Under the pieces are notes generated by a model. It did not search any database and had not been told where the DNA came from. It was given only the letters and a program-made list of their open reading frames with translations. Shown in pieces: positions 907 through 21,372 of a stretch of 64,000 bases of DNA (its first letter is position 1; every line of letters starts with the position of its first letter). The position numbers and the translations under genes were made by a program. Location of the stretch: contig QBYL01000002.1 of the NCBI GenBank assembly GCA_003282835.1, positions 55,001 through 119,000 on the forward strand, given 5' to 3'. This DNA is from Pelagibacteraceae bacterium AG-325-J13. GTDB lineage: Bacteria; Pseudomonadota; Alphaproteobacteria; Pelagibacterales; Pelagibacteraceae.

Positions 907-1746
907 ATGAACAAAAGATTTATTAGAATTATTCCTAAACTAGACATTAAAAATGGTTTGTTGATAAAGGGAATTAATCTAGATGGCTTAAGAATTTTAG
1001 GCGATCCTTACAACTTTGCGGAATACTATTATAAAAATGGTGCTGACGAAATATTTTATGTTGATAATGTAGCGTCTTTATTTGGAACAAATAATTTGAC
1101 TAAATTTGTGACTAAGACTTCAAAAAACCTTTTTATTCCTTTATCTGTTGGAGGAGGAATTAAAACATTGGTTCAAATTGAAAATTTTCTAAAATGTGGT
1201 GCTGATAAAGTTTCATTAAATTCAGCAGCAATTAATAATTTAAATTTTGTAAAAAAAGCTTCAAGAATTTTTGGCTCATCTACAGTTACTTGCATCATCG
1301 AGGCTATAAAAATTAACAATAAATATTTGATCACGAAAGAAAATGGAAGAGATATAGTCAATATTGATCCCGTAACTTGGGCAAAAAAGCTTGAGGATAA
1401 TGGAGCAGGCGAGATCTTTTTAACTTCAGTAAAAAAAGAGGGAACAAAAGAAGGCTTTGATATATCTCTTACAAACAAAATTTCAAAAAGTGTCCATATT
1501 CCAGTTATAGCTCATGGAGGAGCTGGATCATTTGAGCATGTTTATGATGTGATAAAAAACACAAGAGTCTCGGGCGTTTCTTTAGCAGGGCTTTTCCATT
1601 ACGAAATTTGCCACAACTTTAAATTTAAAAAGATTAAAGTAGGTAACACACATTTTTTGCGAAATATGAAAAAAAAAAAATCCAAAAAAATGCTTACTGA
1701 TCTTAAAAAATTTTTGTCGAAGAGAGGAGTTCATATTAGAAAATGA
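907..1746 (+). CDS. HisF-like cyclase subunit (surface-sugar amidotransferase complex)
   Basis: RIIPKLDIKNGLLIKGINLDGLR..., PLSVGGGI, IPVIAHGGAGS: HisF TIM-barrel motifs; followed by hisH-like and PseA/WbpG-like genes. Confidence 0.85.
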   Translation: MNKRFIRIIPKLDIKNGLLIKGINLDGLRILGDPYNFAEYYYKNGADEIFYVDNVASLFGTNNLTKFVTKTSKNLFIPLSVGGGIKTLVQIENFLKCGADKVSLNSAAINNLNFVKKASRIFGSSTVTCIIEAIKINNKYLITKENGRDIVNIDPVTWAKKLEDNGAGEIFLTSVKKEGTKEGFDISLTNKISKSVHIPVIAHGGAGSFEHVYDVIKNTRVSGVSLAGLFHYEICHNFKFKKIKVGNTHFLRNMKKKKSKKMLTDLKKFLSKRGVHIRK

Positions 1747-2360
1747 CAAAAAAAAAAATTGGTATAGTGGACTTAAAAATCAACAATATTCATAGTATTT
1801 TCGAGGCATGTAAAGAAGTCGGCTACAAAGTGGAAATAATTGATAAAACTCACAAGACTTATAATCATGATATTGTAATTTTACCTGGAATAGGATCATT
1901 TAAAGTCGGTATGGGCAAAATTAAAGAAATGCAATTTGACAAAAAAATTTTAGATTTTTTAGAAAAGAAAAACAAATTTTTAGTTGGAATTTGTTTAGGA
2001 ATGCAATTATTTTTTTCAGACAGTCAAGAATTTGGAAGTACAAAAGGATTAAATCTAATTGAAGGAAAAGTTGAAAAAATTAGCAATAAATTGGTGGTTC
2101 CACATACAGGCTGGAATAAATTAGAATTGAAGAAGAATTATCTTTTAAGTGATAAAAAGTTTAATAATAAAATGTTTTACTTCACACACTCATTTGTTTG
2201 TAAACCAAAAACAGATAATCATATTTTGGCTAAGACAAAATATTCAAGCTTCAATTTTTGCTCTTTAGTTCTTAAAAAAAATATTTTTGGTATGCAATTT
2301 CACCCAGAAAAAAGTGGAAAAATTGGTTTAGATTTAATAAAAAATTTTGAAAGGTACTAA
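1743..2360 (+). CDS. HisH-like glutamine amidotransferase subunit
   Basis: VILPGIGSFKVGM, LVGICLGMQLFF (GATase nucleophile elbow), GMQFHPEKSG. Confidence 0.88.
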   Translation: MTKKKIGIVDLKINNIHSIFEACKEVGYKVEIIDKTHKTYNHDIVILPGIGSFKVGMGKIKEMQFDKKILDFLEKKNKFLVGICLGMQLFFSDSQEFGSTKGLNLIEGKVEKISNKLVVPHTGWNKLELKKNYLLSDKKFNNKMFYFTHSFVCKPKTDNHILAKTKYSSFNFCSLVLKKNIFGMQFHPEKSGKIGLDLIKNFERY

Positions 2361-3577
2361 TGAGTCTTAAAACTTTATATGGGCTTCCTAAAAAAGTTAT
2401 ATTTTGTAAAAAAACTTTAATATCAAATCAAAGGCCTAATTCAGCAATAGAATTTAAACATACATCAAAGTCAAAAAAGAAAACAATTAATATTGATAAA
2501 AACCGAATTTCTGATTCTTGGAAATTTTCAAGAATTAAAAATAAAATTAATTATAAGTTACGTGAAAAAAAATTACTGCGATTACTTGAAAAATTTAGGG
2601 GAAAAGGTGACTATGATTGTATCGTTCCAGGTAGTGGAGGAAAAGACAGTTGTTATGCTGCACATATTTTAAAATTTAAATATGGAATGAATCCTTTGAC
2701 TGTTACCTGGCCCCCAATACTATATACATCTTATGGATATGAAAATTTTAAAAATTGGCTAAAAACTGGTGACTTTAGAAACCTTTCTGCAAAAAGAAAT
2801 GAGAATTTTTTTAAAATCTTGACAAAATTGTCTATTAAAAACTTATTACATCCCTTTCAAACATTTATTCTAGGGCAAAAAAATTTTGCTCCAAAAATTG
2901 CATTAGAAAATAATATTCCATTAGTTTTTTACGGAGAAAATGAAGCTGAACATGGCAACCCAATCTCAGACACAAGAAACTCGCTGAGAGATAATTCTTA
3001 TTTCATATTTAAAAATTTCAAAGATTTGCGTTTAGGTGGTCTTAAAGTAAGTGAAATTATGAATGAATATAATTTTAATTATAAAGATTTTGATGATATT
3101 TTACCCTTACAAGAGTCAAGATTAGGAAAATTTCCGTTAGAGGTTCATTATTTAGGTTATTATTTAAAATGGATACCGCAAGAAACTTATTATTATGCTG
3201 TCGAAAATTGTAATTTTCGACCTAGGCCATTTAGGACTCAAGGCACATATAGTAAATATAACAGTATAGATGATAAAATTGATGATTTACATTATTATAC
3301 AACATTTATTAAATTTGGAATTGGAAGAGCAACATACGATGTATCGCAGGAAATAAGAAATGATCATATATCTGTAGAGGAAGGAAAAAAATTAATTAAA
3401 AAATATGATGGAGAATTTCCAGACAGATATTTTTCTGAAGTAATGAAATATCTAAAAATCAAAGAGGAAGAATTTTTTAAACTTTGCGACAAACATAGAT
3501 CACCACATTTGTGGAAAAAGGTAAAAAAAAAATGGTATTTAAGACATACAGCAAATTGTGACGGGACAGATGAATAA
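2360..3577 (+). CDS. N-acetyl sugar amidotransferase (PseA/WbpG/LegA-like)
   Basis: DYDCIVPGSGGKDSCYAAHILKFKYGMNPLTVTW (PP-loop) and C-terminal KKKWYLRHTANCDG; adjacent to HisH/HisF pair. Confidence 0.85.
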   Translation: MSLKTLYGLPKKVIFCKKTLISNQRPNSAIEFKHTSKSKKKTINIDKNRISDSWKFSRIKNKINYKLREKKLLRLLEKFRGKGDYDCIVPGSGGKDSCYAAHILKFKYGMNPLTVTWPPILYTSYGYENFKNWLKTGDFRNLSAKRNENFFKILTKLSIKNLLHPFQTFILGQKNFAPKIALENNIPLVFYGENEAEHGNPISDTRNSLRDNSYFIFKNFKDLRLGGLKVSEIMNEYNFNYKDFDDILPLQESRLGKFPLEVHYLGYYLKWIPQETYYYAVENCNFRPRPFRTQGTYSKYNSIDDKIDDLHYYTTFIKFGIGRATYDVSQEIRNDHISVEEGKKLIKKYDGEFPDRYFSEVMKYLKIKEEEFFKLCDKHRSPHLWKKVKKKWYLRHTANCDGTDE

Positions 3578-3622
3578 AAAGTTAATAAAAACAACACTTT
3601 TTTAATCAAAAGTTTCTTTACT

Positions 3623-3637
3623 GTTCAAAAAATGAAC
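3623..3637. promoter_or_regulatory. Palindrome 1, GTTCAAAAAATGAAC (candidate operator)
   Basis: Perfect 5-bp arms GTTCA/TGAAC; same arms as the palindrome exactly 20 bp downstream. Confidence 0.6.
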
Positions 3638-3642
3638 GATAT

Positions 3643-3657
3643 GTTCAAATATTGAAC
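3643..3657. promoter_or_regulatory. Palindrome 2, GTTCAAATATTGAAC (candidate operator abutting start codon)
   Basis: Arms GTTCAA/TTGAAC, extendable to TGTTCAA-ATA-TTGAACA; ends 1 nt before ATG at 3659. Confidence 0.65.
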
Positions 3658-3658
3658 A

Positions 3659-3976
3659 ATGAAAAAAATTAACTCACAAGATAATTTAGAAATATTACGT
3701 AATATTGATAAAAATCCCCAAGCTAGTCAAAGAGATCTAGCAGCCAAATTAGGATTTAGTATTGGAAAAATCAATTACTGTATTAAAGCATTACAAAACA
3801 AAGGTCTAATTAAAATTAAAAATCTACAAAAGAAAAAAAATAAACTTAGTTACATCCAGGAATATATATTGACGCCCCAAGGAATGTCACTGAGAACTAA
3901 GTTAACCATCGATTTCATGAAAAGAAAATTGAAAGAGTATGATGAACTTAAAAAAGAATTAAATGATAAAAATTAA
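3659..3976 (+). CDS. Winged-helix, MarR-family EPS-associated transcriptional regulator
   Basis: LEILRNIDKNPQASQRDLAAKLGFSIGKINYCIKALQNKGLIKIKN...YILTPQGMSLRTKLTIDFMKRKLKEYDELKKEL: wHTH plus family-typical C-terminus. Confidence 0.85.
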   Translation: MKKINSQDNLEILRNIDKNPQASQRDLAAKLGFSIGKINYCIKALQNKGLIKIKNLQKKKNKLSYIQEYILTPQGMSLRTKLTIDFMKRKLKEYDELKKELNDKN

Positions 3977-3979
3977 TTT

Positions 3980-4477
3980 ATGTGGAAAGTTTTAAAAATT
4001 AAAAAAAGAGAATTAGGTTTATTTAAAAGAGATTTTTTAATGAAATTTGGAAGTGAACTAAAAATTTACAGTCCAAAAGTTATGATAGTTAAGAATATGA
4101 AAAATAAGTTAATAAAAAAAGAAATAGATATACTAGGTGATTATCTATTTTGTTATCATAAATGCTTTAAGAAAAAAGAGTTTTCTTTTATTTTAAAAAA
4201 TCTAAAAGGATTGAAATATATACTTACTGAAGATGGAAAAAATCAAAATGAAATTATTGATTTTATAAATAAATGTAAAAATGCTGAAGATAAAAATGGT
4301 TTTTTAACTCAAAAATTCTTTGATCTTAATATAAAAAAAACTTGTAGATTTCTTAATGGACCTTTTGCTGAAAAAATTTTCGAAATTATAAATTTACAAA
4401 AAAATAAAATAGATATTTTATTAGGTAACTTAAAAGTAAATATAGATAAGTCAAAATTTATTTATAATTCTATTTAA
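3980..4477 (+). CDS. Probable NusG/RfaH-like (NGN + KOW) transcription elongation factor paralogue
   Basis: N-term MWKVLKIKKRE, YSPKV, GDYLFCYH (GYVFV-like), LKGLKYIL; C-term RFLNGPFAEKIFEIINLQKNKIDILLGNLKVNID resembles KOW 'v.dGPFa...g.i......k..vll....v.v'. Confidence 0.65.
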   Translation: MWKVLKIKKRELGLFKRDFLMKFGSELKIYSPKVMIVKNMKNKLIKKEIDILGDYLFCYHKCFKKKEFSFILKNLKGLKYILTEDGKNQNEIIDFINKCKNAEDKNGFLTQKFFDLNIKKTCRFLNGPFAEKIFEIINLQKNKIDILLGNLKVNIDKSKFIYNSI

Positions 4478-4507: not shown

Positions 4508-4527
4508 TGTAAAAATTATATTTTACA
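4508..4527. repeat. Inverted repeat TGTAAAA-ATTATA-TTTTACA
   Basis: Perfect 7-bp arms with 6-nt loop in the 80-nt leader upstream of the 4558 gene. Confidence 0.6.
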
Positions 4528-4529
4528 AA

Positions 4530-4543
4530 GTGCGGAGCCTACT
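4530..4543 (+). promoter_or_regulatory. GC-rich element GTGCGGAGCCTACT; candidate ops/JUMPstart-like pause site
   Basis: Isolated GC-rich run in a very AT-rich leader, immediately downstream of NusG-like gene; partial resemblance to E. coli ops GGCGGTAGCGTG. Confidence 0.35.
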
Positions 4544-4557
4544 CAATTTTTAAGAAA

Positions 4558-5607
4558 ATGAATATAAAATTTAAGAATAAAAATAATTTAGTATTAAAAA
4601 ATAGAAGTATTGCTGATTCTATAAAAATTTTAAATAAATTAAAACATAAAACCTTAGTTGTCATCGATAAAAAAAATAAGTTATTCGGTACACTTACAGA
4701 CGGGGATATAAGAAGAGGAATATTAAAAGGATACGATCTTAAAGCAAAAATTAGTAATATTACATTTAGAAAACCTCAAAGAAGAATTATAGGACAAGAA
4801 CATTTAGAAATTATTAACAAAGAAAATGCAAATGTTATTCCGTGTGTAGATAAATTTAATAAAGTAAAATTTATCGAAATTTATAAAGACTCAAAAATAG
4901 GTAGAAAAAATCTTTACAATATTGAAATTATTTTGATGGCAGGTGGATTTGGAAAAAGATTAATGCCGCTTACAAAAAAAATTCCAAAACCTTTGTTAAA
5001 GATAGGAAAAAAATCACTATTAGAAATTTCAATAAATAATTTTAACAAATATGGATTTAATAAATTTTATATATCAACTTTTTATAAATCCAAATTAATT
5101 AAAAAATATTTTAAAAAAAAAATTTTTAAAGGGAACAATATTAAATTTTTGGATGAAAAATCTCCACTCGGAACGGCAGGATGCTTATCACTTTTAAATT
5201 TAAATGAAATTAGTGAAAATATCTTAATTTCTAATGGAGATATAATAACTGATTTAAATATCAATAATTTAATAAAATTTCATATTGATACTAAGTCTGA
5301 TATTACTGTTTGTGCAAAAGAATATGCTAATACATCTCCTTTTGGTCAAATTTTCTTTAAAGGACATAAAATTAAAAAGATTGTCGAGAAACCAAGAGAA
5401 AAAAATTTTATCAACGCTGGAATTTATATAATGAAAAAAGAAATGATCAAAAATATGGTTACAGTGCATTTAGATATGACAAATTTCATAGAAAAAAAAA
5501 TCTCACAGGGAAAAAATGTGAATATATATCCAATATATGAGTATTGGGTAGATATTGGAAAAAAAGAAACTTTTAAACAAATTTTGAAAAAAAACCTATT
5601 TAAATAA
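4558..5607 (+). CDS. CBS-domain sugar nucleotidyltransferase (PtmE-like)
   Basis: N-term CBS repeats (TLVVIDKKNKLFGTLTDGDIRRGIL) then NTP-transferase MAGGFGKRLMPLTKKIPKPLLKIG. Confidence 0.85.
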   Translation: MNIKFKNKNNLVLKNRSIADSIKILNKLKHKTLVVIDKKNKLFGTLTDGDIRRGILKGYDLKAKISNITFRKPQRRIIGQEHLEIINKENANVIPCVDKFNKVKFIEIYKDSKIGRKNLYNIEIILMAGGFGKRLMPLTKKIPKPLLKIGKKSLLEISINNFNKYGFNKFYISTFYKSKLIKKYFKKKIFKGNNIKFLDEKSPLGTAGCLSLLNLNEISENILISNGDIITDLNINNLIKFHIDTKSDITVCAKEYANTSPFGQIFFKGHKIKKIVEKPREKNFINAGIYIMKKEMIKNMVTVHLDMTNFIEKKISQGKNVNIYPIYEYWVDIGKKETFKQILKKNLFK

Positions 5608-5610
5608 TAT

Positions 5611-6762
5611 ATGCAAAAACTTTTGAAATATTTATTGTACAAAAAAAGTGCTCTTAAAAAAAATTTTCTTCCACTTCATGAGCCAGATATTTCCAAATTA
5701 GATCAAAAGGAAATTACAAAAATTATTAATTCAGGGTTTGTATCTTCTGTTGGCAAAGATATTCAAAGATTTGAAAATATAATTAGTAAGTTTACCAATT
5801 CAAAGTTTGTGATTACTACAATTAATGGAACTGCAGCTATTCATATTGGATTAAAATTGTTAGGAGTAAAAAAAGGAGATGAAGTTTTACTCCCATCGAT
5901 TGGTTTTGTAGCAGCAGCTAATGCTATTATTTATAATAATGCCGAGCCTCATTTCGTTGACTCAGAATTGAATCATTTTGGAGTTGATCCTGATAAGCTT
6001 AAAGAATATCTAAAAAAAAACACTTATATTTCAAATAACAAATGTATAAATAAAAAAACAAAAAAAATAATAAAAGCAATTATTATTGTCCATGTTTTTG
6101 GGCATCCAGCTAAAATTTCAGAAATAATAAAAATAGCGAAAAAATATAAAATTAAGGTCCTTGAAGATGCAGCTGAGTCTTTAGGAAGTAAATACAAAGG
6201 CAAACATGTTGGAAACTTTGGCGATATAGGTATTTTGAGTTTTAATGGAAATAAAATTGTAACAACAGGATCTGGCGGCGCAATTCTGTGCAATAATAGA
6301 TATTTAGCAAAAAAAGCAAGACATTTAGTAACAACATCTAAATTAAAACATAAATGGGAATTTATTCATGATGATGTAGGTTACAATTATCGTTTAGCTA
6401 ATTTAAATGCTGCCCTTGGTATTTCTCAAATCAAAAGAGTAAATAAATTTATAAAAAAAAAACATGAAATTTACAAAAGATTTAATAAGCTTATAGATAA
6501 TTCAAAAGACTTATTTTTACTCAATCAGCCTAAATCATGTCGAAGTAATTTTTGGCTACAAACTTTAGTTTTAAAAAAACCCTCAGTTCATTTAAGGAAT
6601 AAAATATTGACGATATTTTACAAAAAAAAAATTTTAGCTAGACCTATTTGGAAACCCCTTCACAAACTTAGCTTTTTAACAAAATATCAAAAGATGAGTC
6701 TTAAAAATGCTGAACAAATAGAAAAAAAAATTATCAATATACCGAGTAGTTGTTATTTATAA
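5611..6762 (+). CDS. DegT/DnrJ/EryC1 aminotransferase (LegC-like)
   Basis: GTAAIHIGLKLLGVKKGDEVLLPSIGFVAAANAI, EDAAESLGSKYKGKHVGNFGDIGILSFNGNKIVTTGSGGA. Confidence 0.87.
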   Translation: MQKLLKYLLYKKSALKKNFLPLHEPDISKLDQKEITKIINSGFVSSVGKDIQRFENIISKFTNSKFVITTINGTAAIHIGLKLLGVKKGDEVLLPSIGFVAAANAIIYNNAEPHFVDSELNHFGVDPDKLKEYLKKNTYISNNKCINKKTKKIIKAIIIVHVFGHPAKISEIIKIAKKYKIKVLEDAAESLGSKYKGKHVGNFGDIGILSFNGNKIVTTGSGGAILCNNRYLAKKARHLVTTSKLKHKWEFIHDDVGYNYRLANLNAALGISQIKRVNKFIKKKHEIYKRFNKLIDNSKDLFLLNQPKSCRSNFWLQTLVLKKPSVHLRNKILTIFYKKKILARPIWKPLHKLSFLTKYQKMSLKNAEQIEKKIINIPSSCYL

Positions 6763-6763
6763 A

Positions 6764-7447
6764 ATGGAAAAAAAACATAAAATAATTTTTTTTGGAAGAA
6801 AAGATTGCATGGTATCAAAAAAATTTATCAAGGAATTAAAAAAATATTCCAATAACGTAAAAGTTATTATGAATGACAAAATTAAACAAAAATTTCCAAA
6901 AAATATTTTTTTTTGGGAAGGTGATTACATAATGTGTTTTAGATCTTTTTATATTCTCCCAAAAAAATTTATAAAAAAAGCTAAAATTGCCGCTATAAAT
7001 TTTCATCCTGGTCCTCCAAATTATAGGGGTATTGGTTGTGTAAATTTTGCTATTTTAAATTCTGAAAAGTTCTACGGATCTACATGTCATTTGCTAACAA
7101 AAAAAATTGATTCAGGAAAAATTTTGGATGTTATAAAGTTCAAGATTAAAAAAAAAGATAATATCGAGTCTATTCTTAAGAAGACGTATAATTTTCAATT
7201 TTTACAATTAAAAAAAATTTTAAAAAACGGACTTAGCATAAAAAAAATAAAAAAAATGCAACATTTAATGAGACACAAAAAATGGTCTAGCAAACTTTAT
7301 ACAAGAAAAGAACTTAATAACCTTTATGATATTGCAAAAAATATAAAAATTGCATCTCAAGATCTCGACAAGTATTTGAGAGCAACAGTTACTAATAAAT
7401 TTAGGCCTTTTTTAAGGATAAAAAACAAAAATTATTATTTTTCATGA
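6764..7447 (+). CDS. Formyltransferase-family protein (10-formyl-THF sugar N-formyltransferase-like)
   Basis: INFHPGPPNYRGIGCVNFAILNSEKFYGSTCHLLTKKIDSGKILD: formyltransferase N-H-D catalytic region. Confidence 0.8.
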   Translation: MEKKHKIIFFGRKDCMVSKKFIKELKKYSNNVKVIMNDKIKQKFPKNIFFWEGDYIMCFRSFYILPKKFIKKAKIAAINFHPGPPNYRGIGCVNFAILNSEKFYGSTCHLLTKKIDSGKILDVIKFKIKKKDNIESILKKTYNFQFLQLKKILKNGLSIKKIKKMQHLMRHKKWSSKLYTRKELNNLYDIAKNIKIASQDLDKYLRATVTNKFRPFLRIKNKNYYFS

Positions 7448-8448
7448 AAAAAGATAAAGTAATTATAATTGCAGAAGCAGGAGTAAATCATAATGGAAGT
7501 GTTACTAAAGCAAAAAAATTAATTTCTGCAGCCGCAAATTCAGGAGCTGATTTCATAAAATTTCAAACATTTGAGCCAGAGCAAATGATAATTCCCAATA
7601 CTGAGATGGCTGAATATCAAAAGAAAAATACAAAAAAAAATCAAACGCAATATGAAATGTTGAAAAAATATAAAATTAATAAGAAATATTACAAGGAACT
7701 AATAAAGTTTTCAAAAAAAAAAAAAATTAAATTCTTATCCTCTCCTTTTGATATACATAGTATTAAATTTTTACAAAAACTGAAATTAAATCTTTTTAAA
7801 ATCCCTTCAGGAGAAATAACAAATTATCCTTACTTAAGAAAACTTGGTAAGCTAAAAAAAAAAATAATATTGTCCACGGGAATGTCAGATTTAAAAGAAA
7901 TTGAAACAGCAATAACTATTTTAAGAAAATTTGGAACAAAAAAAAACAATATTTCCTTATTACACTGTCACTCAGACTATCCCTCTCAACCAAAAAATTT
8001 GAATTTAAAAGCAATTCAGACAATAAAAGAAAAATTTAAATTAAAAGTAGGTTATTCTGATCATAGCGAAGGCATTGAAGCAGCTATAGTTTCGGTAGCT
8101 TTAGGAGCTAAAATTATTGAGAAACATCTTACTTTGAATAGAAAAATGAAAGGCCCAGATCATCTCGCTAGCATAGAACCTAAAACATTTAGATCAATGG
8201 TTAAAGCAATTAGAACGACTGAAAAAATGTTGGGAGATGGAAAAAAAATTCCTACTAAAAAAGAGATAAAAATTAGAAATTTGGTTAGAAAATCTATTGT
8301 AAGCAACAAAAATATCATCAAAGGAGAAAAATTTACCGAAAAAAATATTACTACCAAAAGACCTGGAACTGGTAAATCTGCAATTTTATTTAATAAGATT
8401 CTAAATACTAAATCAAAAAAAAATTATAAAAACAATAACTTGATTTAA
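7444..8448 (+). CDS. legI: N-acetylneuraminate/legionaminate synthase (NeuB/LegI family)
   Basis: IIAEAGVNHNGSVTKAKKLISAAANSGADFIKFQTF...SSPFD...KIPSGEITNYP...STGMSDL...GYSDHSEGIEA...IIEKHLTL; SAF-like C-terminus. Confidence 0.88.
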   Translation: MKKDKVIIIAEAGVNHNGSVTKAKKLISAAANSGADFIKFQTFEPEQMIIPNTEMAEYQKKNTKKNQTQYEMLKKYKINKKYYKELIKFSKKKKIKFLSSPFDIHSIKFLQKLKLNLFKIPSGEITNYPYLRKLGKLKKKIILSTGMSDLKEIETAITILRKFGTKKNNISLLHCHSDYPSQPKNLNLKAIQTIKEKFKLKVGYSDHSEGIEAAIVSVALGAKIIEKHLTLNRKMKGPDHLASIEPKTFRSMVKAIRTTEKMLGDGKKIPTKKEIKIRNLVRKSIVSNKNIIKGEKFTEKNITTKRPGTGKSAILFNKILNTKSKKNYKNNNLI

Positions 8449-8452
8449 AAAA

Positions 8453-9610
8453 ATGAAAATTTGTTTTATAAGCGGTTCAAGAGCAGATTATGGGTTGTTA
8501 AGTCAACTTATGCTATTAGTAAAAAATGAAAAAAGTTTTAAATATCAATTAATTCTTACTGGATCACACTTATCAAAAAAACATGGATATACTTATAAAG
8601 AGGTATTAAAAGATGGATTTAAAATAAATCATTTAGTTGATTTGAATATCAATAAAGATCAACCAACAGACATATGCAATTATACAAGTTTAGCAATTAA
8701 AAAAATTTCATCAAAATTAGAACAATTAAAACCAAATTTGTTAGTTATTCTTGGGGACAGGTATGAAATTTTTGCTGCTTGCACTGCTGCATTTATTCAT
8801 CAAATCCCTATTTGCCATCTGCATGGAGGTGAACTCACAGCAGGCTCAATAGACGATTCTTTTAGACATTCTATAACTAAGATGTCAAATATACATTTAG
8901 TTTCAAACATAAAATATGCAAAAAGAGTTCAACAATTAGGTGAAAATCCAAAAAATATTTTTACAGTTGGAGGATTTGGTGTTGATATGATTCAAAAAAT
9001 TAAGATATTAAAAAAAGAGGAATTAGAAAAAAAACTAAAATTCAATTTTTTAAAAAAAAATTTGTTAGTAACTTATCATCCCGAAACGGCTGGGAATACT
9101 AATCCAAAAAAAGATTTTAATGAAATATTAATTTCACTTCGCCAATTTAAAGATATTAAATTTATATTTACAAAATCTAATGCAGATACAAATGGTCTTA
9201 TTATTAATAAGATGATAAATGATTTTGTAAAAAGAAATAACTCAAACTCTGTTGCATTTAAATCTATGGGGCAAATAAATTACCTATCTACATTAAAATA
9301 TGTCGATGGTGTTATAGGAAATTCTTCAAGTGGATTATTGGAGGCACCTTTCTTTAAAAAAATTACAATAAATGTAGGTAATAGACAAAAATATAGACTT
9401 AAATCCAAAAGTGTTATCGATACGTCACCTGATAGGGGACAAATTTCTAAGAATATCAAAAAAATTTATTTATCAAAATTTGAAAACTCATTGAAAAATT
9501 TACACAATCCGTACGGAAAAGGAGGGGCATCAAAAAAATCTTTTTCTATATTGAAAAAAATAAAAAATAAAAAAATTATTTTAGATAAAAAATTTGTTGA
9601 TCAAATTTAA
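8453..9610 (+). CDS. legG: UDP-GlcNAc-type hydrolysing 2-epimerase (NeuC/LegG)
   Basis: CFISGSRADYGLLSQLM, LGDRYEIFAACTAAF..IPICHLHGGELTAGSIDDSFRHSITKMS, GNSSSGLLEAP. Confidence 0.9.
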   Translation: MKICFISGSRADYGLLSQLMLLVKNEKSFKYQLILTGSHLSKKHGYTYKEVLKDGFKINHLVDLNINKDQPTDICNYTSLAIKKISSKLEQLKPNLLVILGDRYEIFAACTAAFIHQIPICHLHGGELTAGSIDDSFRHSITKMSNIHLVSNIKYAKRVQQLGENPKNIFTVGGFGVDMIQKIKILKKEELEKKLKFNFLKKNLLVTYHPETAGNTNPKKDFNEILISLRQFKDIKFIFTKSNADTNGLIINKMINDFVKRNNSNSVAFKSMGQINYLSTLKYVDGVIGNSSSGLLEAPFFKKITINVGNRQKYRLKSKSVIDTSPDRGQISKNIKKIYLSKFENSLKNLHNPYGKGGASKKSFSILKKIKNKKIILDKKFVDQI

Positions 9611-10582
9611 ATGAAAAAATTATTTATAACAGGCGCTACAGGATTTATTGGCTCTCACTTATGCGAAATGGGAGTCAAAAAAGGATATAAAGTAATTGGA
9701 TTTGATAGATACAATTCTAATAGTGACTATGGATGGTTAAAAAAAAGTAAATATTTAAACAAAATTGAATTAATTTTAGGAGATATTCGAGATTATGACT
9801 CAGTTTATAAATCAATGAAAAATTCTGATATAGTTTTTCATTTAGCAGCTTTAATTGGCATTCCTTATTCTTACGTTTCTCCATTAGCCTATATAAAAAC
9901 AAATACTGAAGGAACATATAATGTATTAGAAGCTGCAAGAAATTTAAAAATAAAAAATTTAGTCGTCACTTCTACAAGCGAAGTTTATGGTTCAGCAAAA
10001 TATTTACCTATAGATGAAAAACATCCGCTAAATGCTCAATCTCCTTATGCTGCATCAAAGGTAGCAGCAGACCAGTTATCATTAAGTTTTAATAAGTCTT
10101 ATAATCTTCCTGTAAAAATAATTCGCCCATTTAATACTTATGGTCCTAGACAATCAAATAGAGCTGTAATACCTAGAGTTATAAGTCAGTGTTTATTTAA
10201 TACTAACAAAATTAAACTTGGAAATATTAATCCTACTAGAGACTTCAATTTTGTTGAAGATGTATGTGATGCATATTTTAAGATAATGAATATTAAAAAA
10301 TTAAATGGAGAAATTATAAACGTTGGTAGTCAGCGCAGTATTTCAATACAAGACCTTGCTAAGAAAATCATGAAATATACAAATTCTAATTTAAAAATTG
10401 AGAAATTAAATAAAATAATAAGACCAAAAAAAAGTGAAGTAGATAATCTAAAATGCAATAATTCAAAAATAAGAAATTTAACATCATGGAAACCAAAAAC
10501 ATCTTTAAAAGACGGTTTAGAGCAAACTATTGATTGGATGGTTGAAAATGAATCAAACTTTGACAACAAATACCAAATTTAA
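9611..10582 (+). CDS. legB: NAD-dependent 4,6-dehydratase (LegB-like)
   Basis: FITGATGFIGSHLCE, HLAALIGIPYSYVSPLAYIKTNTEGTYNVLEAARN, SEVYGSA, YAASKVAADQL. Confidence 0.88.
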   Translation: MKKLFITGATGFIGSHLCEMGVKKGYKVIGFDRYNSNSDYGWLKKSKYLNKIELILGDIRDYDSVYKSMKNSDIVFHLAALIGIPYSYVSPLAYIKTNTEGTYNVLEAARNLKIKNLVVTSTSEVYGSAKYLPIDEKHPLNAQSPYAASKVAADQLSLSFNKSYNLPVKIIRPFNTYGPRQSNRAVIPRVISQCLFNTNKIKLGNINPTRDFNFVEDVCDAYFKIMNIKKLNGEIINVGSQRSISIQDLAKKIMKYTNSNLKIEKLNKIIRPKKSEVDNLKCNNSKIRNLTSWKPKTSLKDGLEQTIDWMVENESNFDNKYQI

Positions 10583-10585
10583 ATA

Positions 10586-11317
10586 ATGCGTATCATATGT
10601 ACAATTTGTGCTCGCGGTAACTCAAAAGGTGTAGTCAATAAAGCCTTAAAAAAAATTAATGGCGTTCCATTGATAGGAATTACAGTACAACAAGCTAAAT
10701 TAACTAAAGTTTTTGATGAAATCATAGTATCCACTGACTCAAAGAAAATTCAAAAAACCGCTATAAAGTATGGTGCTAAGTCATGGTTTTTGAGACCAAA
10801 ATATTTGTCTAATGATTATGCATCAAAAATTTTAGCAATAAGAGACGCTTTTATAAGATCAGAAGAAAAATTTCAAAAAACTTTTGATTTATGTGTTGAT
10901 CTGGACATAACATCTCCTTTAAGAAAAATAAGTGATATCAAAAATTCGATAAGACTATTTAATAAAAAAAATTTTGAAAATTTATTCACTGTATGTGAAG
11001 CAAGACGAAATCCTTATTTTAATATGATAGAAATTTCAAATAAAAACAAAGTATCAATAATTAAAAAGCTTAAAAATAAGAAAAGAAATGTACTTTCAGC
11101 TTCATCAAAAAAATGGAGTTCATTTAATAGAAGACAAAGTTGCCCTAAAGTATTTGATTTAAATGCATCAATTTATATTTGGAAAAGATCAAAAATATTG
11201 AATTCTAATGAACTGATTTCAAAAAACACAGGTGTATATATAATGCCACAAAATAGATCAATTGACATTGATAGCTATTTTGATTTGTTTTTAGTAAAAC
11301 AAATATTAAAGAGATGA
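10586..11317 (+). CDS. legF: CMP-nonulosonic acid cytidylyltransferase (NeuA/LegF)
   Basis: IICTICARGNSKGVVNKALKKINGVPLIGITVQQA...STDSKKIQKTA...D.TSPLRKISDI. Confidence 0.88.
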   Translation: MRIICTICARGNSKGVVNKALKKINGVPLIGITVQQAKLTKVFDEIIVSTDSKKIQKTAIKYGAKSWFLRPKYLSNDYASKILAIRDAFIRSEEKFQKTFDLCVDLDITSPLRKISDIKNSIRLFNKKNFENLFTVCEARRNPYFNMIEISNKNKVSIIKKLKNKKRNVLSASSKKWSSFNRRQSCPKVFDLNASIYIWKRSKILNSNELISKNTGVYIMPQNRSIDIDSYFDLFLVKQILKR

Positions 11318-12090
11318 AAAAACAATTCTTAAATTTATCTGAAAAAAAAGCGTTTGTTCTTGGCGGGTCTGGATTAATCGGTTCGGTAGTAGTTCGTAAA
11401 TTAAATTATTTAGGTTGTAAAGTAATAAATTTAGATATTAAAAAACCGATTCTTAACATAAAAAACTTTTATAAATTTGATTTTACGCAAAAAGATATTT
11501 CTAAATCTTACAAAAAACTTGTTTATAGATTTGGTCTGCCTGATGTTTTTATAAACTGCTCGTATCCTAAAACAAAAGATTGGGTAAAAAATAGCTTTAC
11601 AAATATTAAAATTTCATCCCTAAAAAAAAATATTGAAAGTCAATTAGTGTCCAGTAGCTTTTTAATTAGAGAAGTTGCCGAAGCAAATAAAAGTAAAAAG
11701 AAAAAATGTAGTATTGTGATGTTAGGGTCCATTTATGGTTTAGTAGGGCAAGATCCAAATATTTACAAAGGAACTAACATTACTGAAAATATGTCATATT
11801 CAATTATTAAAGGCGGCATAACTAATTTAACAAGACAAATGGGGTCTTATTACTCCAGATATGGAATTAGAGTAAATAATGTCTGTCCAGGTGGCGTCTT
11901 TGACAGCAGTATAAGTAAAAAAAATAAAAAATATACTCGTCTAGTTAAAAACTATTCAAAAAGAGCACCTATGAATAGAATGGCAAGTCCTGACGAAATA
12001 GCTGATCCTATAATTTTTTTGGCTTCAGACCAATCATCCTATATATCTGGTTCGTCATTGATAGTAGATGGTGGGTGGACTTCAATATAA
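11314..12090 (+). CDS. SDR oxidoreductase (PtmA-like)
   Basis: VLGGSGLIGSVVVRKL, MLGSIYGLVGQD, YSIIKGGITNLTRQ, FLASDQSSYISGSSLIVDGGWTSI. Confidence 0.82.
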   Translation: MKKQFLNLSEKKAFVLGGSGLIGSVVVRKLNYLGCKVINLDIKKPILNIKNFYKFDFTQKDISKSYKKLVYRFGLPDVFINCSYPKTKDWVKNSFTNIKISSLKKNIESQLVSSSFLIREVAEANKSKKKKCSIVMLGSIYGLVGQDPNIYKGTNITENMSYSIIKGGITNLTRQMGSYYSRYGIRVNNVCPGGVFDSSISKKNKKYTRLVKNYSKRAPMNRMASPDEIADPIIFLASDQSSYISGSSLIVDGGWTSI

Positions 12091-12995
12091 CATTCATGAA
12101 AGTTGTAATCATCGGGTACGGTTCTATTGGAAGGAAGCATGCAAAAATCCTTTCACGAAATTTTAAAAATATTGAAATTTATATTTATACGAAACAAATT
12201 ATAAAAAATTTTAATTATTTCAAAGATATAAATGAAATTAAAACTATTAACCCTCAATACATTGTAATAGCAAGTGAAACTCATAAACATTATAAGCAAT
12301 TAAAATTTTTAGAGAAAAGTTTTAAAAAAATCAAAATATTGATTGAGAAGCCACTTTTTCATAAATTTTTTAATTTTTCAGTTAAAAATAACGAGGTATA
12401 TACTGCTTATAATTTAAGATTTCATCCTTTGGTTATTAAATTAAAAAAATTTCTGAAAAACAAAGATATTTATGATGTTAACTTAATTACAAATTCATAT
12501 TTACCTAATTGGAGAAAAAATATTTCCTTTAAAAAAAATTATGCAGGTTTCAAATCAAAAGGAGGAGGAATAATTTTAGATTTAAGTCATGAACTAGATT
12601 TTCTTCACTCAATATTTAAGAATTTAAATTTAAAATATGTAGATTTCAATAAGAAATCAAATTTGACACATAACACCGAAGATAATTTAAAGTTATACGC
12701 GCGTTCCAACAAAACTCATATTTCTGTAGATCTTAAATATTATTCTAAAAATGAAATTAGAATTTTTCTCATTGATGGAAAAAATTTTTCAGTCTTATTA
12801 GATCTCAAAAATAATGTGCTCAAAATTCAAGAAAAAAGAAGAAAATTTTTAATAAAAAAAACTTTTTCCCAAGAAAAAACTTTATTGGAAATGCATAAAG
12901 CTCTAATCAATAATAAAAATAAAAAATTTTTATGTTCTTTTAATCAAGGCAAAGAAGTTTTAAAAGCAATAGAAAAGATAAAAAAATTTAAATAA
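12075..12995 (+). CDS. Gfo/Idh/MocA-family oxidoreductase (true start probably ATG at 12096)
   Basis: MKVVIIGYGSIGRKHAKIL, ASETHKHYKQL, LIEKPLFHKF, GGGIILDLSHELDFL. Confidence 0.85.
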   Translation: MDFNITFMKVVIIGYGSIGRKHAKILSRNFKNIEIYIYTKQIIKNFNYFKDINEIKTINPQYIVIASETHKHYKQLKFLEKSFKKIKILIEKPLFHKFFNFSVKNNEVYTAYNLRFHPLVIKLKKFLKNKDIYDVNLITNSYLPNWRKNISFKKNYAGFKSKGGGIILDLSHELDFLHSIFKNLNLKYVDFNKKSNLTHNTEDNLKLYARSNKTHISVDLKYYSKNEIRIFLIDGKNFSVLLDLKNNVLKIQEKRRKFLIKKTFSQEKTLLEMHKALINNKNKKFLCSFNQGKEVLKAIEKIKKFK

Positions 12996-14200
12996 TGTTT
13001 ATCTTAATTACACCATACAAATTTACGCAATTTAGTTATATAAATTATGAATTAGATATTTTTAAAAAAAAATTAAAAGAAAAGTTTGAAATTCATGATT
13101 TAAGCAACATTATTAATCCTTCTTGGAATCATGCTTTCAAATTAAAACGACATCATAAAGCAAAAACTTTTCTATCAATAAATCAATGGGAAAGATATTT
13201 TTTAAGTTTAAAAAAAAAAGACAACAATATTGTTGTAATGAATGAACTTGATTTAAATTCTATTTCATCTTTAATTATACAATTTAAGTTAAGCAAGTAT
13301 TGCAATAACATAATACAATTCAAAGCACCAGGTATCCCAAATCGCACAATTGAAACAAAAACCCTTACAAATTTTGACAATTTCGGTAAAAAAATCTTTA
13401 AAATATTAAATATAAAAATTTCATTATTCTATCTCAAAAAAAAATTTTTAAATATTTGTTTCAAACTAATTAAATTTAAAAACGTATATGTTATTTGTTG
13501 TGGTAATAAAAAAAACTATACTTTAAATTTAAATGCTAAAAAGGTAGTTCTTATAAATTTTCATTTTCGCGACTATTCTCGATTATTGTTTTATAACATA
13601 AAGAAAAAAAAAAATAAAAAATCTAATATAATTTTCTTAGATACACCTGGACCATATTTTACTGATGACTTTGATTTATTTCAAAAAAAGACAAATTATA
13701 GAATAGAAAAATGGTACGAAGATTTAAATAATTTTCTTTTGAAGGTAGAAAAGAAATTTTCCTCTAAAGTGGTAATAGTTCCTCACCCTAAAGTAAAAAA
13801 TTCTCATAATCCCTACTATAATAAGAAATTCAATATTTGTAGAGATATGAATGCTGTACATAAATTAATTCCAAATTCAAAACTTGTAATCTCAATTAAT
13901 GGAAGTACTGCCATAGGGATAGCTATAGCCACAAAAAAACCTATTGTTTTAATATATAATGACCAACAAAAAAAATTTAATAATGAATTATTTAATGATT
14001 TAAATTTTATATCACAAAAATGCGGCTCAAAATTAATAAATATAAATAATTATGATATTAATAAACTTTATAATAAGGTTGATGAGAGTATATACAGAAA
14101 ATATTTTTATGACTATATTTCAACAAAAAAAATTTCAAAAAAAAGGAATTATCAAATATTGAATAATTTGATACATAAAATTAAAAATGATAAAAAATAG
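12995..14200 (+). CDS. Putative GT-B-like glycosyltransferase / capsule-type protein
   Basis: VVIVPHPKVKNSHNPYYN...NAVHKLIPNSKLVISINGSTAIGIAIATKKPIVLIYND: donor-site-like motif seen in capsule/sialyl-type transferases; position next to legF. Confidence 0.5.
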   Translation: MFILITPYKFTQFSYINYELDIFKKKLKEKFEIHDLSNIINPSWNHAFKLKRHHKAKTFLSINQWERYFLSLKKKDNNIVVMNELDLNSISSLIIQFKLSKYCNNIIQFKAPGIPNRTIETKTLTNFDNFGKKIFKILNIKISLFYLKKKFLNICFKLIKFKNVYVICCGNKKNYTLNLNAKKVVLINFHFRDYSRLLFYNIKKKKNKKSNIIFLDTPGPYFTDDFDLFQKKTNYRIEKWYEDLNNFLLKVEKKFSSKVVIVPHPKVKNSHNPYYNKKFNICRDMNAVHKLIPNSKLVISINGSTAIGIAIATKKPIVLIYNDQQKKFNNELFNDLNFISQKCGSKLININNYDINKLYNKVDESIYRKYFYDYISTKKISKKRNYQILNNLIHKIKNDKK

Positions 14201-15701
14201 AAATAGTTTTATATCCCTTAAAGAAGGGTTCAAAAGTGTCCAAAAAAAATCTCACTATGTAGCATCTGGAATATTTCCAATTATTATTACCCCTAAAAAT
14301 GATTTAAACTTAGTATTTTTTAATTATTGGAACAACAAAAATAAGATCTCAACTGAAAACGTAAAATGTTTTATAAAAATTTATGATACATACGGAAATT
14401 TACTTTGCCATTTTGAAAGTAAAATTTCAAAATTTCACAATCAACACTCAATTAAGGATATCTTAAAAAAAAATAATTTAAAGATTAATAAAATAATTGG
14501 GACTGTAAATGTTGAAATTGTATCTCTAGAAAAACTTGGTTATCCTTTTCCAGCAATTACAGGCATATACAATTCTGGAAATATTTACAGCTCAGTTCAT
14601 AGTGCCGGCAGAATTAAGAATAATTCTGAACCTCACGATGTTATGTATACCGAAGAAACAAATTGGACATGTAAGTTTGACAATTCTATTACACCTTTTT
14701 TTCATTATTTTGTAGGAAATCAAAAGCCTAAATTAAATTACATTACAGTAAAAGTTCTTTCAAAAAATAAAAAAATTAAGAAAAGCAAGAAAATTTTAAT
14801 TAACGATATAAATATATTCGGATCTAAAATATTTTATATTAAAGATATATTTAAAAATTCAAGTTTTTCAAATTCAGATTTTATTTCCATAGAAGTTGAA
14901 CATAACTCTGTCTTTCCTAGATTGATTGTAGGTAATCACCATGCTAGTAAAAATTTTTTTGAGGTTACACATTCTTTTCCAAAGATAACAAAAAAAGATC
15001 ATTGCCCCTCAAATGGAAGCAATTATTTTCAGTCAAAAATGTTAGGATATACAAATAAAGATCTAAACTTAAAACTAAAAATATTTCCAACTTCTTGTAA
15101 AGGAAATTTTACTGGAGAAACATTTGTAAAAAAATTTGGAGAAAAAAAATTAAATAAAACTAAACAAGAAATATATTTTTCTCAAAAAAAATTAGAGAGC
15201 GAAAATGTGATCAGACTTGACAATGATGAGGAAATAAAAAGTATTAAACTTAAAGGTAACAAAATTCCTTCAAGATTGAATACGTCTTTCATTTACAATG
15301 TAAGAGGTTGTAAAACAAAATATTCTGTTGATATAGCTAGTGGAGCTCACTCAAGTATTTTTCCAAAAAAAATTACGCACTGGGGTCATGGATATTGTGC
15401 AGAGGGATTTAATTCAATTATAATGATTGCAAATGATAATTTCGAACATTCATATAATGAGACATTTAAAGGAATTTTAAACGTTTATTCAAACGATTTA
15501 AAAACAAAAATACCAGTAGTTATACAACCAGGTTCTTTACTTACTATAGATATTTCTAAACACAAAAAATTTACGAAACTAAAAAAAAGAAAACTTAGTT
15601 TTTTTAGTTGGTTCCTGAAATTGGAAAAACCAGGATGTGAATGTTTTTGGTTAAGTTATCGAAAAAAGGATGGCTCCATATTTGGAGACCATAGTTTTTA
15701 G
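14187..15701 (+). CDS. Uncharacterised 504-aa protein with apparent three-fold internal repeat
   Basis: Long ORF overlapping its neighbour by 14 nt; recurring segment ending in [IL]xxG/Y...[GS]xNxY/F..xHS (PAITGIYNSGNIYSSVHS; PRLIVGNHHASKNFFEVTHS; ECFWLSYRKKDGSIFGDHS). Confidence 0.7.
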   Translation: MIKNRNSFISLKEGFKSVQKKSHYVASGIFPIIITPKNDLNLVFFNYWNNKNKISTENVKCFIKIYDTYGNLLCHFESKISKFHNQHSIKDILKKNNLKINKIIGTVNVEIVSLEKLGYPFPAITGIYNSGNIYSSVHSAGRIKNNSEPHDVMYTEETNWTCKFDNSITPFFHYFVGNQKPKLNYITVKVLSKNKKIKKSKKILINDINIFGSKIFYIKDIFKNSSFSNSDFISIEVEHNSVFPRLIVGNHHASKNFFEVTHSFPKITKKDHCPSNGSNYFQSKMLGYTNKDLNLKLKIFPTSCKGNFTGETFVKKFGEKKLNKTKQEIYFSQKKLESENVIRLDNDEEIKSIKLKGNKIPSRLNTSFIYNVRGCKTKYSVDIASGAHSSIFPKKITHWGHGYCAEGFNSIIMIANDNFEHSYNETFKGILNVYSNDLKTKIPVVIQPGSLLTIDISKHKKFTKLKKRKLSFFSWFLKLEKPGCECFWLSYRKKDGSIFGDHSF

Positions 15702-15729
15702 ATTTTTCTCTATTAAAATTAGGCCTTAG

Positions 15730-16653
15730 ATGAAAAAAAAAAAATCAGTTTTAATAATTGGTGGTACTGGGTTTTTAGGCTTCCATATTGCTAAATTTTT
15801 ACTTAAAAAAAATTTTAATGTTATCAGTATTTCCCTCAACAAACCAAAAAAAAAAAGATTTTTAAAAACATTAATATACTTAACTTGCGATATTGGAAAA
15901 TATTCTTCTTTACAAAAAAAACTAAAATACTCTGTTGATTATGTAATAAACTGTGGAGGTTATGTAAATCATTATAACGATAAACAAAATTTTAATACTC
16001 ACTTTAAGGGTACTAAAAATTTAATCAAAGTTCTTAAAAAAGAAAAATTAAATAAATTTATACATATAGGAAGTTCTCTTGAATATGGTAAAATAAATTC
16101 TCCAAATCTAGAAACAAATAAATGTATTCCAAAAATGTCTTACGGATTAAATAAATTAAAGGCATCAAAATATTTATTGAATGAATTTAAAAAAAACAAT
16201 TTTCCTGTTGTAATTTTAAGACTTTACCAACTATATGGAACCCATCAGGACAATAATAGATTTATACCATTTGTAATTTCGTCATGTTTAAAAGGAAAAA
16301 TTTTTCCTTGCTCAAATGGTAAACAAAAAAGAGACTTTCTTTACGTAAATGATGCGGTTAAGGCAATTTATAAATCCATGGTAGCCAAAAATACTGATGG
16401 AAAATTAATTAATCTAGGTTTTGGTAAAGCTATTCAAATTAAAAAGATAATACAAAAGATTAGATCCAAAGTAAAAAAAGGAGAACCTAAGTTTGGTGTG
16501 ATAAAAATGAGGAAAGAAGAACAGGATATTATCTATCCCAATATAAAATTGGCAAATAAAATTTTGAAATGGAAACCAGTTACAAATTTAGAAGTTGGCT
16601 TAACAAAAACTATAAATTTTTATAAAAATTTTAAAGAAGAAAATAATTTATGA
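15730..16653 (+). CDS. NAD-dependent epimerase/dehydratase (nucleotide-sugar reductase-like)
   Basis: LIIGGTGFLGFHIAKFLL, IHIGSSLEYGKI, SYGLNKLKASKYL, KRDFLYVNDAVKAI. Confidence 0.85.
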   Translation: MKKKKSVLIIGGTGFLGFHIAKFLLKKNFNVISISLNKPKKKRFLKTLIYLTCDIGKYSSLQKKLKYSVDYVINCGGYVNHYNDKQNFNTHFKGTKNLIKVLKKEKLNKFIHIGSSLEYGKINSPNLETNKCIPKMSYGLNKLKASKYLLNEFKKNNFPVVILRLYQLYGTHQDNNRFIPFVISSCLKGKIFPCSNGKQKRDFLYVNDAVKAIYKSMVAKNTDGKLINLGFGKAIQIKKIIQKIRSKVKKGEPKFGVIKMRKEEQDIIYPNIKLANKILKWKPVTNLEVGLTKTINFYKNFKEENNL

Positions 16654-17381
16654 AAGTCATAATTTTAGCTGGTGGTCAAGGCACGAGATTAGCTGAGCAT
16701 ACAAAGACAATACCAAAACCAATGGTAAAAATTGGAAATTACCCAATTATAATTCATATTATTAATCATTATTTAAAATATGACTTTAATGAGTTTTTTA
16801 TTGCCGCTGGGTACAAAAGTTACGTAATCAAGAGATATTTCAAAAATTTTAAAAAAGTTAATGAACCATTTTTTCATAAAATTTTCGGAAAAGAATGTTC
16901 AATTACAATTGCTGATACTGGACTGAAAACATTGACAGGGGGAAGATTAAAAAGAATGAAAAAATTTATCAAAGAAAAAGAGGATTTCATGTTTACTTAC
17001 GGAGATGGTATCTCTAACATTAATTTAAATAAACTTTTAAGATTTCATAAAAATTCGAAAAAACTGTCAACAATTACCGCAGTCCATCCACCAGCAAGAT
17101 TTGGTGAATTAATTTTAAAAAATGATTCAGTCAAAACGTTTAAGGAAAAACCACAAACAATATCTGGCTGGATAAATGGTGGTTTTTTTGTAACAAGTTA
17201 CAAAATTTTTGACTTCATAAACGGTGATAAAGAAATTCTAGAAAAAAAACCTTTAGAAAAATTAACACAGAAAAATCAATTAGCTGCATATAAGCATAAG
17301 GGTTTTTGGAAATGTATGGATACGGTAAGAGATAGAGATGTCTTAAAAGATATTTATAAAAAAAACAAATTTAAATTTTAG
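16650..17381 (+). CDS. rfbF: Glucose-1-phosphate cytidylyltransferase
   Basis: MKVIILAGGQGTRLAEHTKTIPKPMVKIGNYPIIIHI..., FMFTYGDGISNINLNKLLRFHK, HPPARFGEL, GWINGGFFV, WKCMDTVRDRD. Confidence 0.92.
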   Translation: MKVIILAGGQGTRLAEHTKTIPKPMVKIGNYPIIIHIINHYLKYDFNEFFIAAGYKSYVIKRYFKNFKKVNEPFFHKIFGKECSITIADTGLKTLTGGRLKRMKKFIKEKEDFMFTYGDGISNINLNKLLRFHKNSKKLSTITAVHPPARFGELILKNDSVKTFKEKPQTISGWINGGFFVTSYKIFDFINGDKEILEKKPLEKLTQKNQLAAYKHKGFWKCMDTVRDRDVLKDIYKKNKFKF

Positions 17382-17392
17382 AAAGATTACAT

Positions 17393-18658
17393 ATGTCAAC
17401 GTGTATTAATTGTAAAAACCAAAATTTAATTAAGATTATTAAAATTGGTTCTCAACCATTAAGTGGTGTTTTTCTAAATAAGATAATCAAAAAACCAAAA
17501 AAATATTCTTTAGATCTTTTTCAATGCTCAAAATGCAAACTTGTTCAAATTGGAAAAATTATAAAAGCCCAAAAAATGTTTGGTAACACCTATGAATATA
17601 GGACATCATTAAGTAAGTTTATGTCCCAACATATAAATAAAAAAGCTAAAACTCTAATCAAAAAAAGATATGTAAAAAAAAATTCCTCAATTTTAGATAT
17701 TGGTAGCAATGATGGTACCTTTTTAAACAATTTCAAGCACAATCAAATATTAATTGGAATAGATCCATCTGCAAAAAAATTTTCAAATTTTTATAATAAA
17801 AATATTAAAACTATTTTTGAGTATTTTTCTAAAGAAAACTTAAACAAATTTATTAAGAGAAATTATAAATTTGATGTAATCTCTTCTTTTGCAATGTTTT
17901 ATGACATTAGCAATCCAAATAAATTTTGCAAGGACATAAAAGAATCACTTAATAAAAATGGAATTTGGATTTTGGAATTATCTTATTTGCCTCTAATGTT
18001 AAAAAATCTCACTTACGATCAAATTTGTCATGAACATGTTGCATATTACTCTTTAAATACATTTAAAAAGATAGCTGAAAAAAATAAATTAAAAGTTATT
18101 GATCTTTCATTCAATGAAATTAATGGAGGTAGTATAGAAATCATCTGTGCAAAAAAAGGTAGTAATCATAAAATTAATAATAATAAAATATCAAAAATTT
18201 TAAATGAAGAAAAAAAAATTAATATGAAATCATTTGAAAATTTTAATAAAAGAATAGATGATCTAAAATATTTGCTTCAATATTTTTTAAATTTAAAATC
18301 AAAAAAATATGTTATAGCATATGGAGCATCTACAAAAGGAAATGTAGTTTTAAATCACTGCAATGTTAAAAAAAGTCAAATCAGTGAAATTTGTGACGGA
18401 AGTTCTAGAAAGTTATCAAAATTTACGCCTGGCACGAATCTTAAGATAATTTCAAAAGAATTAATGCGTAAAAAAAATCCAGATTATTTATTAGTTTTAA
18501 TTTGGTCTTTCAGACAAGAGGTTATAAATCAAGAAATTAATTATTTAAAAAAAGGTGGAAAATTAATTTTTTTATTACCTAGATTCCATATTGTTAACAA
18601 AGAAAACTATAAAAATTATCTTAATAGTAATTTTAGCAACCTATCTTATAATTATTGA
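17393..18658 (+). CDS. SAM-dependent sugar C-methyltransferase (Zn-binding N-terminus)
   Basis: CINCKNQNL...FQCSKCKLVQIG zinc-binding; SILDIGSNDGTFL; CHEHVAYYSL; AYGASTKGNVVLNHC; RQEVINQE. Confidence 0.88.
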   Translation: MSTCINCKNQNLIKIIKIGSQPLSGVFLNKIIKKPKKYSLDLFQCSKCKLVQIGKIIKAQKMFGNTYEYRTSLSKFMSQHINKKAKTLIKKRYVKKNSSILDIGSNDGTFLNNFKHNQILIGIDPSAKKFSNFYNKNIKTIFEYFSKENLNKFIKRNYKFDVISSFAMFYDISNPNKFCKDIKESLNKNGIWILELSYLPLMLKNLTYDQICHEHVAYYSLNTFKKIAEKNKLKVIDLSFNEINGGSIEIICAKKGSNHKINNNKISKILNEEKKINMKSFENFNKRIDDLKYLLQYFLNLKSKKYVIAYGASTKGNVVLNHCNVKKSQISEICDGSSRKLSKFTPGTNLKIISKELMRKKNPDYLLVLIWSFRQEVINQEINYLKKGGKLIFLLPRFHIVNKENYKNYLNSNFSNLSYNY

Positions 18659-20270: not shown

Positions 20271-20272
20271 TC

Positions 20273-21358: not shown

Positions 21359-21372
21359 TCTTTATTAATTAA

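Follow-up and report, generated by a model that had tools for sequence, protein, structure and literature searches.

Background

The closest described systems are the specialized NusG paralogues RfaH of E. coli, UpxY of the Bacteroides capsule loci, and LoaP of Bacillus. RfaH consists of NGN and KOW domains and serves several unlinked operons. Its loading element, ops, stands before long surface-polysaccharide operons and is read as DNA, with the T6 base flipped into a pocket whose positions in RfaH have been described (eLife 36349). LoaP binds an RNA hairpin of the UNCG type (dfn) in the leader (PMC12691694). In 2020 the recruitment of NusG paralogues that are encoded inside their operons was described as unknown (PMC7593976).

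The window analyzed here is a stretch of 64,000 nucleotides from the SAR11 bacterium Pelagibacteraceae bacterium AG-325-J13 (contig QBYL01000002.1, positions 55,001 to 119,000). SAR11 bacteria have streamlined genomes with few regulators, and for this reason a cassette dedicated to elongation control is unexpected in them. A search of openly available published articles turned up none that connects SAR11 to RfaH or Pelagibacter to NusG. The comparisons presented below make it likely that a three-part elongation-control cassette heads a SAR11 surface-polysaccharide operon, consisting of a MarR_EPS regulator, a NusG paralogue, and an ops-like element. Like the UpxY gene, the SAR11 paralogue gene opens the capsule-type operon on which its product would act. 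The SAR11 loci differ from those of UpxY in that a candidate recruitment signal is found beside the gene.

The NusG-like protein

Homology and a predicted structure identify the protein encoded at 3980-4477 on the + strand as a very divergent specialized NusG paralogue with NGN and KOW domains. As originally predicted, the open reading frame at these positions encodes 165 amino acids; it begins with ATG. A search of 247 genomes of the same family located homologues of the window protein (P0001) at 70 loci in 69 genomes (E <= 4e-9), and nearly all of them are full length and free of internal stops, showing that this is a real gene family. Relatives are also present on four named SAR11 single-cell or MAG contigs. 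Divergence within the family is extreme, with identities to P0001 of 24-51%. The family models were scanned member by member against 46 homologues from the window and the loci, and the same 46 were aligned for AlphaFold. Counts of elements and residues are based on a final set of 73 distinct SAR11 homologues.

The relationship to NusG is not visible from the window protein alone. P0001 does not match any NusG-type model in Pfam or NCBIfam, it gives nothing convincing against PDB sequences, and BLAST detects no similarity between it and E. coli RfaH. Its best Pfam match, Moulting_cycle (0.0012), is below the cut-off of that family and was taken as compositional. A profile of the homologue family also found no match among PDB sequences; the scans of individual members and the comparison of folds succeeded. 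The best-matching family model is that of UpxY (NF033644), which is matched by 25 of the 46 homologues (best E 2.4e-9) and not by P0001. RfaH models are matched weakly by 12 homologues (best 1.3e-5), again not including P0001. Pfam NusG matches ten of the 46 (best 3.8e-4), the LoaP model six (best 1.1e-5), and NusG TIGR00922 one (1.9e-5).

The predicted fold agrees with these matches. The AlphaFold model from the 46-row alignment has a pLDDT of 88.4 and a pTM of 0.67, and its N-terminal strands and helices follow the NGN order. The strands at 121-164 form a C-terminal five-strand KOW-like barrel. For RfaH the characteristic form of KOW is alpha-helical and autoinhibited; the model presents a beta barrel here, although a second conformation could escape AlphaFold. 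The leading Foldseek matches in the PDB are NusG, RfaH, and Spt5 structures, including 9a56 (1.7e-7), 6tqn (1.2e-5), and 8phk, which is RfaH at ops (1.8e-5). Residues W4, Y54, and G74 of E. coli RfaH align to W2, Y55, and G77 of P0001, which are invariant or nearly so among the homologues, and the GPF motif of the family aligns with NusG and RfaH. The motifs quoted in the original prediction coincide with these NusG landmarks, and the NGN/KOW fold that it proposed is what AlphaFold and Foldseek find.

The SAR11 proteins form a clade of their own. In a tree of NusG-type proteins they are a single group with support of 100/100, apart from NusG, RfaH, and the relatives from other alphaproteobacteria; the branches are long, and the tree does not settle the deeper order. 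Assignment to RfaH, UpxY, or LoaP proper was considered and is unsupported, given this separate clade. By the features tested, the sequences are those of a SAR11 clade of specialized NusG paralogues outside RfaH. Their mode of action may resemble that of RfaH and UpxY, with loading onto RNA polymerase followed by antitermination.

A specialized paralogue was expected to accompany a housekeeping nusG, and this is seen in close relatives. Four genomes of 94-98% completeness (G004, G044, G058, and G064) hold both housekeeping nusG and the paralogue gene. Neither nusG nor rplK, its usual neighbor, was found in the 80.8% complete assembly of G000, the genome of the window. Because rplK is missing too and the near-complete relatives have both genes, the absence of nusG from G000 is most likely an assembly gap in which the ribosomal region is missing.

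The MarR_EPS partner

The upstream neighbor of the paralogue gene encodes a winged-helix regulator of the MarR_EPS family, so that the pairing with a winged helix-turn-helix gene noticed at first now has a family name. This protein of 105 amino acids (3659-3976, + strand) is a clear member of TIGR04176, scoring 115.5 bits where the cut-off is 88 (E = 1e-33), and its gene ends 3 bp before that of the paralogue. A MarR_EPS gene upstream of the paralogue is nearly universal among the homologous loci. The SAR11 paralogue differs in this from UpxY, and no UpxZ-like partner was recognized for it. The family is not confined to such pairs, since close to half of the searched genomes with MarR_EPS have no NusG-like gene of the paralogue family.

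Paired palindromes are the probable operator of the TIGR04176 family. Among 93 distinct MarR_EPS genes, 84 have the pattern GTTCAN5TGAAC between -150 and +30, and 55 have at least two copies, mostly spaced 20-25 bp apart. In the window (3615-3660) the two palindromes are GTTCAAAAAATGAAC at 3623-3637 and GTTCAAATATTGAAC at 3643-3657, the second touching the start codon. MarR_EPS would bind both sites over its own promoter, repressing its own gene and setting initiation, and the NusG paralogue would be made from the same transcript. In one genome, which is 8% contaminated, a MarR_EPS gene (L131, G010:C4) has a classic ops-like sequence, CTGCGGTAGCTTGCTTAAAAC, upstream and not downstream.

The conserved element

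A conserved element lies between the paralogue gene and the operon, at about 4508-4542; it is new and was absent from the original prediction. At all 73 distinct SAR11 loci a hairpin region followed by GTGCGGAGC-N-W-T-G is found 36-68 nt past the stop codon of the paralogue gene. In the window the core reads AAGTGCGGAGC (4528-4538, + strand) and contains a potential mini-hairpin, GC-GGA-GC. The core GTGCGGAGC is exact at 69 of the loci, has one change at three, and has two at L025. The sequence of L025, GTACGGAGT (ACGGAGT), has a paired change of G-C to A-T at positions 3 and 9, which keeps the mini-hairpin pair. Across the 73 loci T2, C4, G5, G6, A7, and G8 are conserved at 100% and G3 and C9 at 99%, while T12 and G13 of the following N-W-T-G are each found at 90%. 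The predicted energies of the mini-hairpin are weak, and the SAR11 form is indistinguishable from shuffled sequences (z-score not significant).

AAGTGCGGAGC is found once in the window, and G000 as a whole has one exact copy. The exact core is found in 69 of 247 genomes, and a reversed control pattern is rare. Additional exact copies inspected in SAR11 genomes are away from the paralogue gene and have no hairpin. The core also appears in 42 viral stretches. These were rejected as chance or coding matches; none has a comparable stem, the scores being 6.0 at the highest and mainly 3-4.8, and the majority come from a small number of recurring sequence contexts. A search of viral sequences with one family member found no relative of the paralogue.

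A different role for this sequence would be as the ribosome-binding site and start region of the first operon gene. The element contains GGAG, and at 17 of the 73 loci a reading frame of at least 60 codons starts with the codon at positions 11-13. Because only these 17 copies have such a frame, ribosome binding is most unlikely. The other 56 loci have none, and the nearest long reading frame with ATG begins 0-332 nt downstream; in the window the ATG of the first gene is 20 nt past GGAG. A ribosome-binding site would not need conservation of the rest of the core, of T12-G13, or of the hairpin, and the window has one copy of the element among dozens of genes.

The element is better explained as a recruitment and pause site. 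Consensus pauses have the pattern G(-10)...Y(-1)G(+1). RNA polymerase at the element, just past the paralogue gene, would pause in response to the upstream hairpin and the context G(-10)...T(-1)G(+1). The window copy carries CCTAC in place of T12-G13, and the consensus pause dinucleotide is therefore missing from it, as it is at L018 and L051. The window flank, CTACTCAA (4539-4546, + strand), is a minority variant of N-W-T-G shared with those two loci. After the core these three loci read CCTACTC or CCTACAC, and in the window an alternative pairing, GAG-CCTA-CTC, can be drawn.

An A+T-rich hairpin stands directly upstream of the core. In the window it is TGTAAAA-ATTATA-TTTTACA (4508-4527, + strand), and at 63 of the 73 loci there is a stem with a score of at least 5 that ends within 3 nt of the core. 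The arms vary (TTGTAAA/TTTACAA, TGACTTT/AAAGTCA, TACAAAA/TTTTGTA, AACTAGA/ACTAGTT, and others), and across the 63 stem-bearing loci compensatory changes in both arms are seen at most stem pairs. Covariation was assessed by swapping upstream arms between loci, since the hairpin varies too much for MAFFT to align. The mean stem score is 7.28, compared with 6.38 after swapping (sd 0.13, with no value above 6.68 in 200 swaps), in a test that treats the loci as unrelated. A search of the leader against Rfam found no family.

The hairpin raises the question of whether the paralogue is recruited through RNA. The nascent hairpin, perhaps as GUGCGGAGC RNA, would then be bound in the manner of LoaP, and the non-template DNA would go unread. 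LoaP is a specialized NusG paralogue that uses a hairpin in the upstream leader RNA (PMC12691694), six members of the SAR11 family match its model, and the compensatory changes at 63 of 73 loci would fit such a role. However, the stem and loop are free to vary in sequence, in contrast to the GTGCGGAGC core, which hardly changes between loci. The SAR11 hairpin has an A+T-rich stem and a variable loop, and the conserved stems listed above are not of the UNCG type bound by LoaP; the invariant part is GTGCGGAGC, which follows the stem. Relatives outside SAR11 have the ops core, which RfaH reads as DNA. Recruitment by RNA is thus possible but doubtful. The preferred reading is that the paralogue is recruited by DNA, in which case the exposed non-template strand would fold into the small GC-GGA-GC hairpin and be read by the NGN domain.

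Relation to ops and RfaH

The SAR11 element can be read as an ops that lacks T6, because relatives outside SAR11 carry the ops core itself at the equivalent place. The ops core GCGGTAGC is found there in all six homologues from other alphaproteobacterial families. Five of the six have a MarR-like gene upstream within the stretch available. In contrast, ops with T6 (GGCGGTAGCNTG) is absent from all 73 SAR11 loci, which have GTGCGGAGC. Both elements have the GCGG-AGC mini-hairpin core followed by TG, and the distance of TG from the first G of GCGG is equal in SAR11 and in E. coli ops, because one extra base follows the SAR11 core. The SAR11 system otherwise differs from RfaH in that T6 and the conservation of the T6-pocket residues are missing and pairwise similarity to RfaH is undetectable. 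In addition, the factor gene heads its own operon, and G000 has a single exact element, whereas RfaH serves operons elsewhere in the genome. The MarR-like genes of the non-SAR11 loci L170, L171, L177, L178, and L179 encode proteins of about 200 amino acids, with an extra C-terminal half past the winged helix.

The residues at the positions that contact ops in RfaH also differ between the two groups. The K10 position is K in all six ops-bearing relatives, while of the 73 SAR11 proteins 36 have D there and 24 have K. The H20 position is N in all six relatives and D or E in 61 of the SAR11 proteins. N is found at the R23 position in the six relatives and K in 36 SAR11 proteins, and Q24 is Q in all six and mixed in SAR11. 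Among the ops-contacting positions K10, H20, R23, and R73, only R73 keeps K or R in SAR11 (68 of 73 proteins). The position of N70 is K or R in 61 SAR11 proteins, and that of A71 is F or Y in 64.

These differences suggest that the signal and its reading surface may have changed together, as a correlation over one deep split. The evidence leaves about an even chance that ops has been re-coded in SAR11. Loss of T6 would have turned a GGTA tetraloop of the non-template strand into a GGA triloop with the TG spacing kept, and the reading surface of the paralogue would have shifted in step, becoming acidic at H20, K/R at N70, and aromatic at A71. If true, the loading of specialized NusG proteins would have a second recognition code, with the upstream hairpin as an addition. 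The system makes co-change of a paralogue and its loading site directly testable. It also provides studies of NusG with a factor and an adjacent signal, 73 natural variants, an outgroup with classic ops, and control operons with MarR alone.

The downstream operon

The element is followed by a co-directional operon (4558-22835, + strand) that probably makes a surface glycan. A mechanical count places the end of the run at 22835, as originally reported. After the element the genes encode a sugar nucleotidyltransferase with a CBS domain, a LegC-type aminotransferase, a formyltransferase, NeuB, NeuC, a LegB-like dehydratase, and a PseF-like CMP-sugar synthetase. Further reading frames, read by eye, resemble epimerases, nucleotidyltransferases, and a glycosyltransferase. 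By these family matches the operon opens with a pathway for a nonulosonic (sialic-acid-like) sugar, and a surface glycan is therefore the probable product. Surface sugars are probably the face of the cell that phages and grazers meet.

The paralogue is associated with longer operons. The 20 MarR_EPS loci that lack the paralogue gene also lack the element, and the majority have sugar, transport, or glycan genes directly adjoining the MarR gene. All 21 downstream runs with the factor are at least 17.1 kb long, and 18 of them reach the end of the 20-kb stretch. The median run is at least 19.6 kb with the factor and 11.4 kb in the MarR-only loci (Mann-Whitney p = 5e-6), in mechanical gene counts that are censored at 20 kb, treat related genomes as independent, and come from loci chosen by the length of their contigs. 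The link to a long operon in the original prediction is borne out as an association only.

The strict tie to the ops-like element and to long operons, together with the conservation of W2, Y55, G77, and the GPF motif, argues against a NusG-fold protein that has taken on another job, such as that of a partner of the MarR protein, and has no role in elongation. Such a protein would fit the extreme divergence of the family (24-51% identity to P0001) and its near-universal pairing with the MarR gene, but MarR_EPS is present without the paralogue in many genomes. Another job is accordingly rated as very improbable. With a role in elongation, the paralogue would remain on RNA polymerase in place of NusG and block pausing and Rho termination over the next 18 kb or more.

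Other sugar genes are found on the opposite side of the cassette. Directly upstream, at 907-3577 of the window, the WbuZ/HisF-like, HisH, and WbuX amidotransferase genes make up an acetamidino-type sugar modification set.
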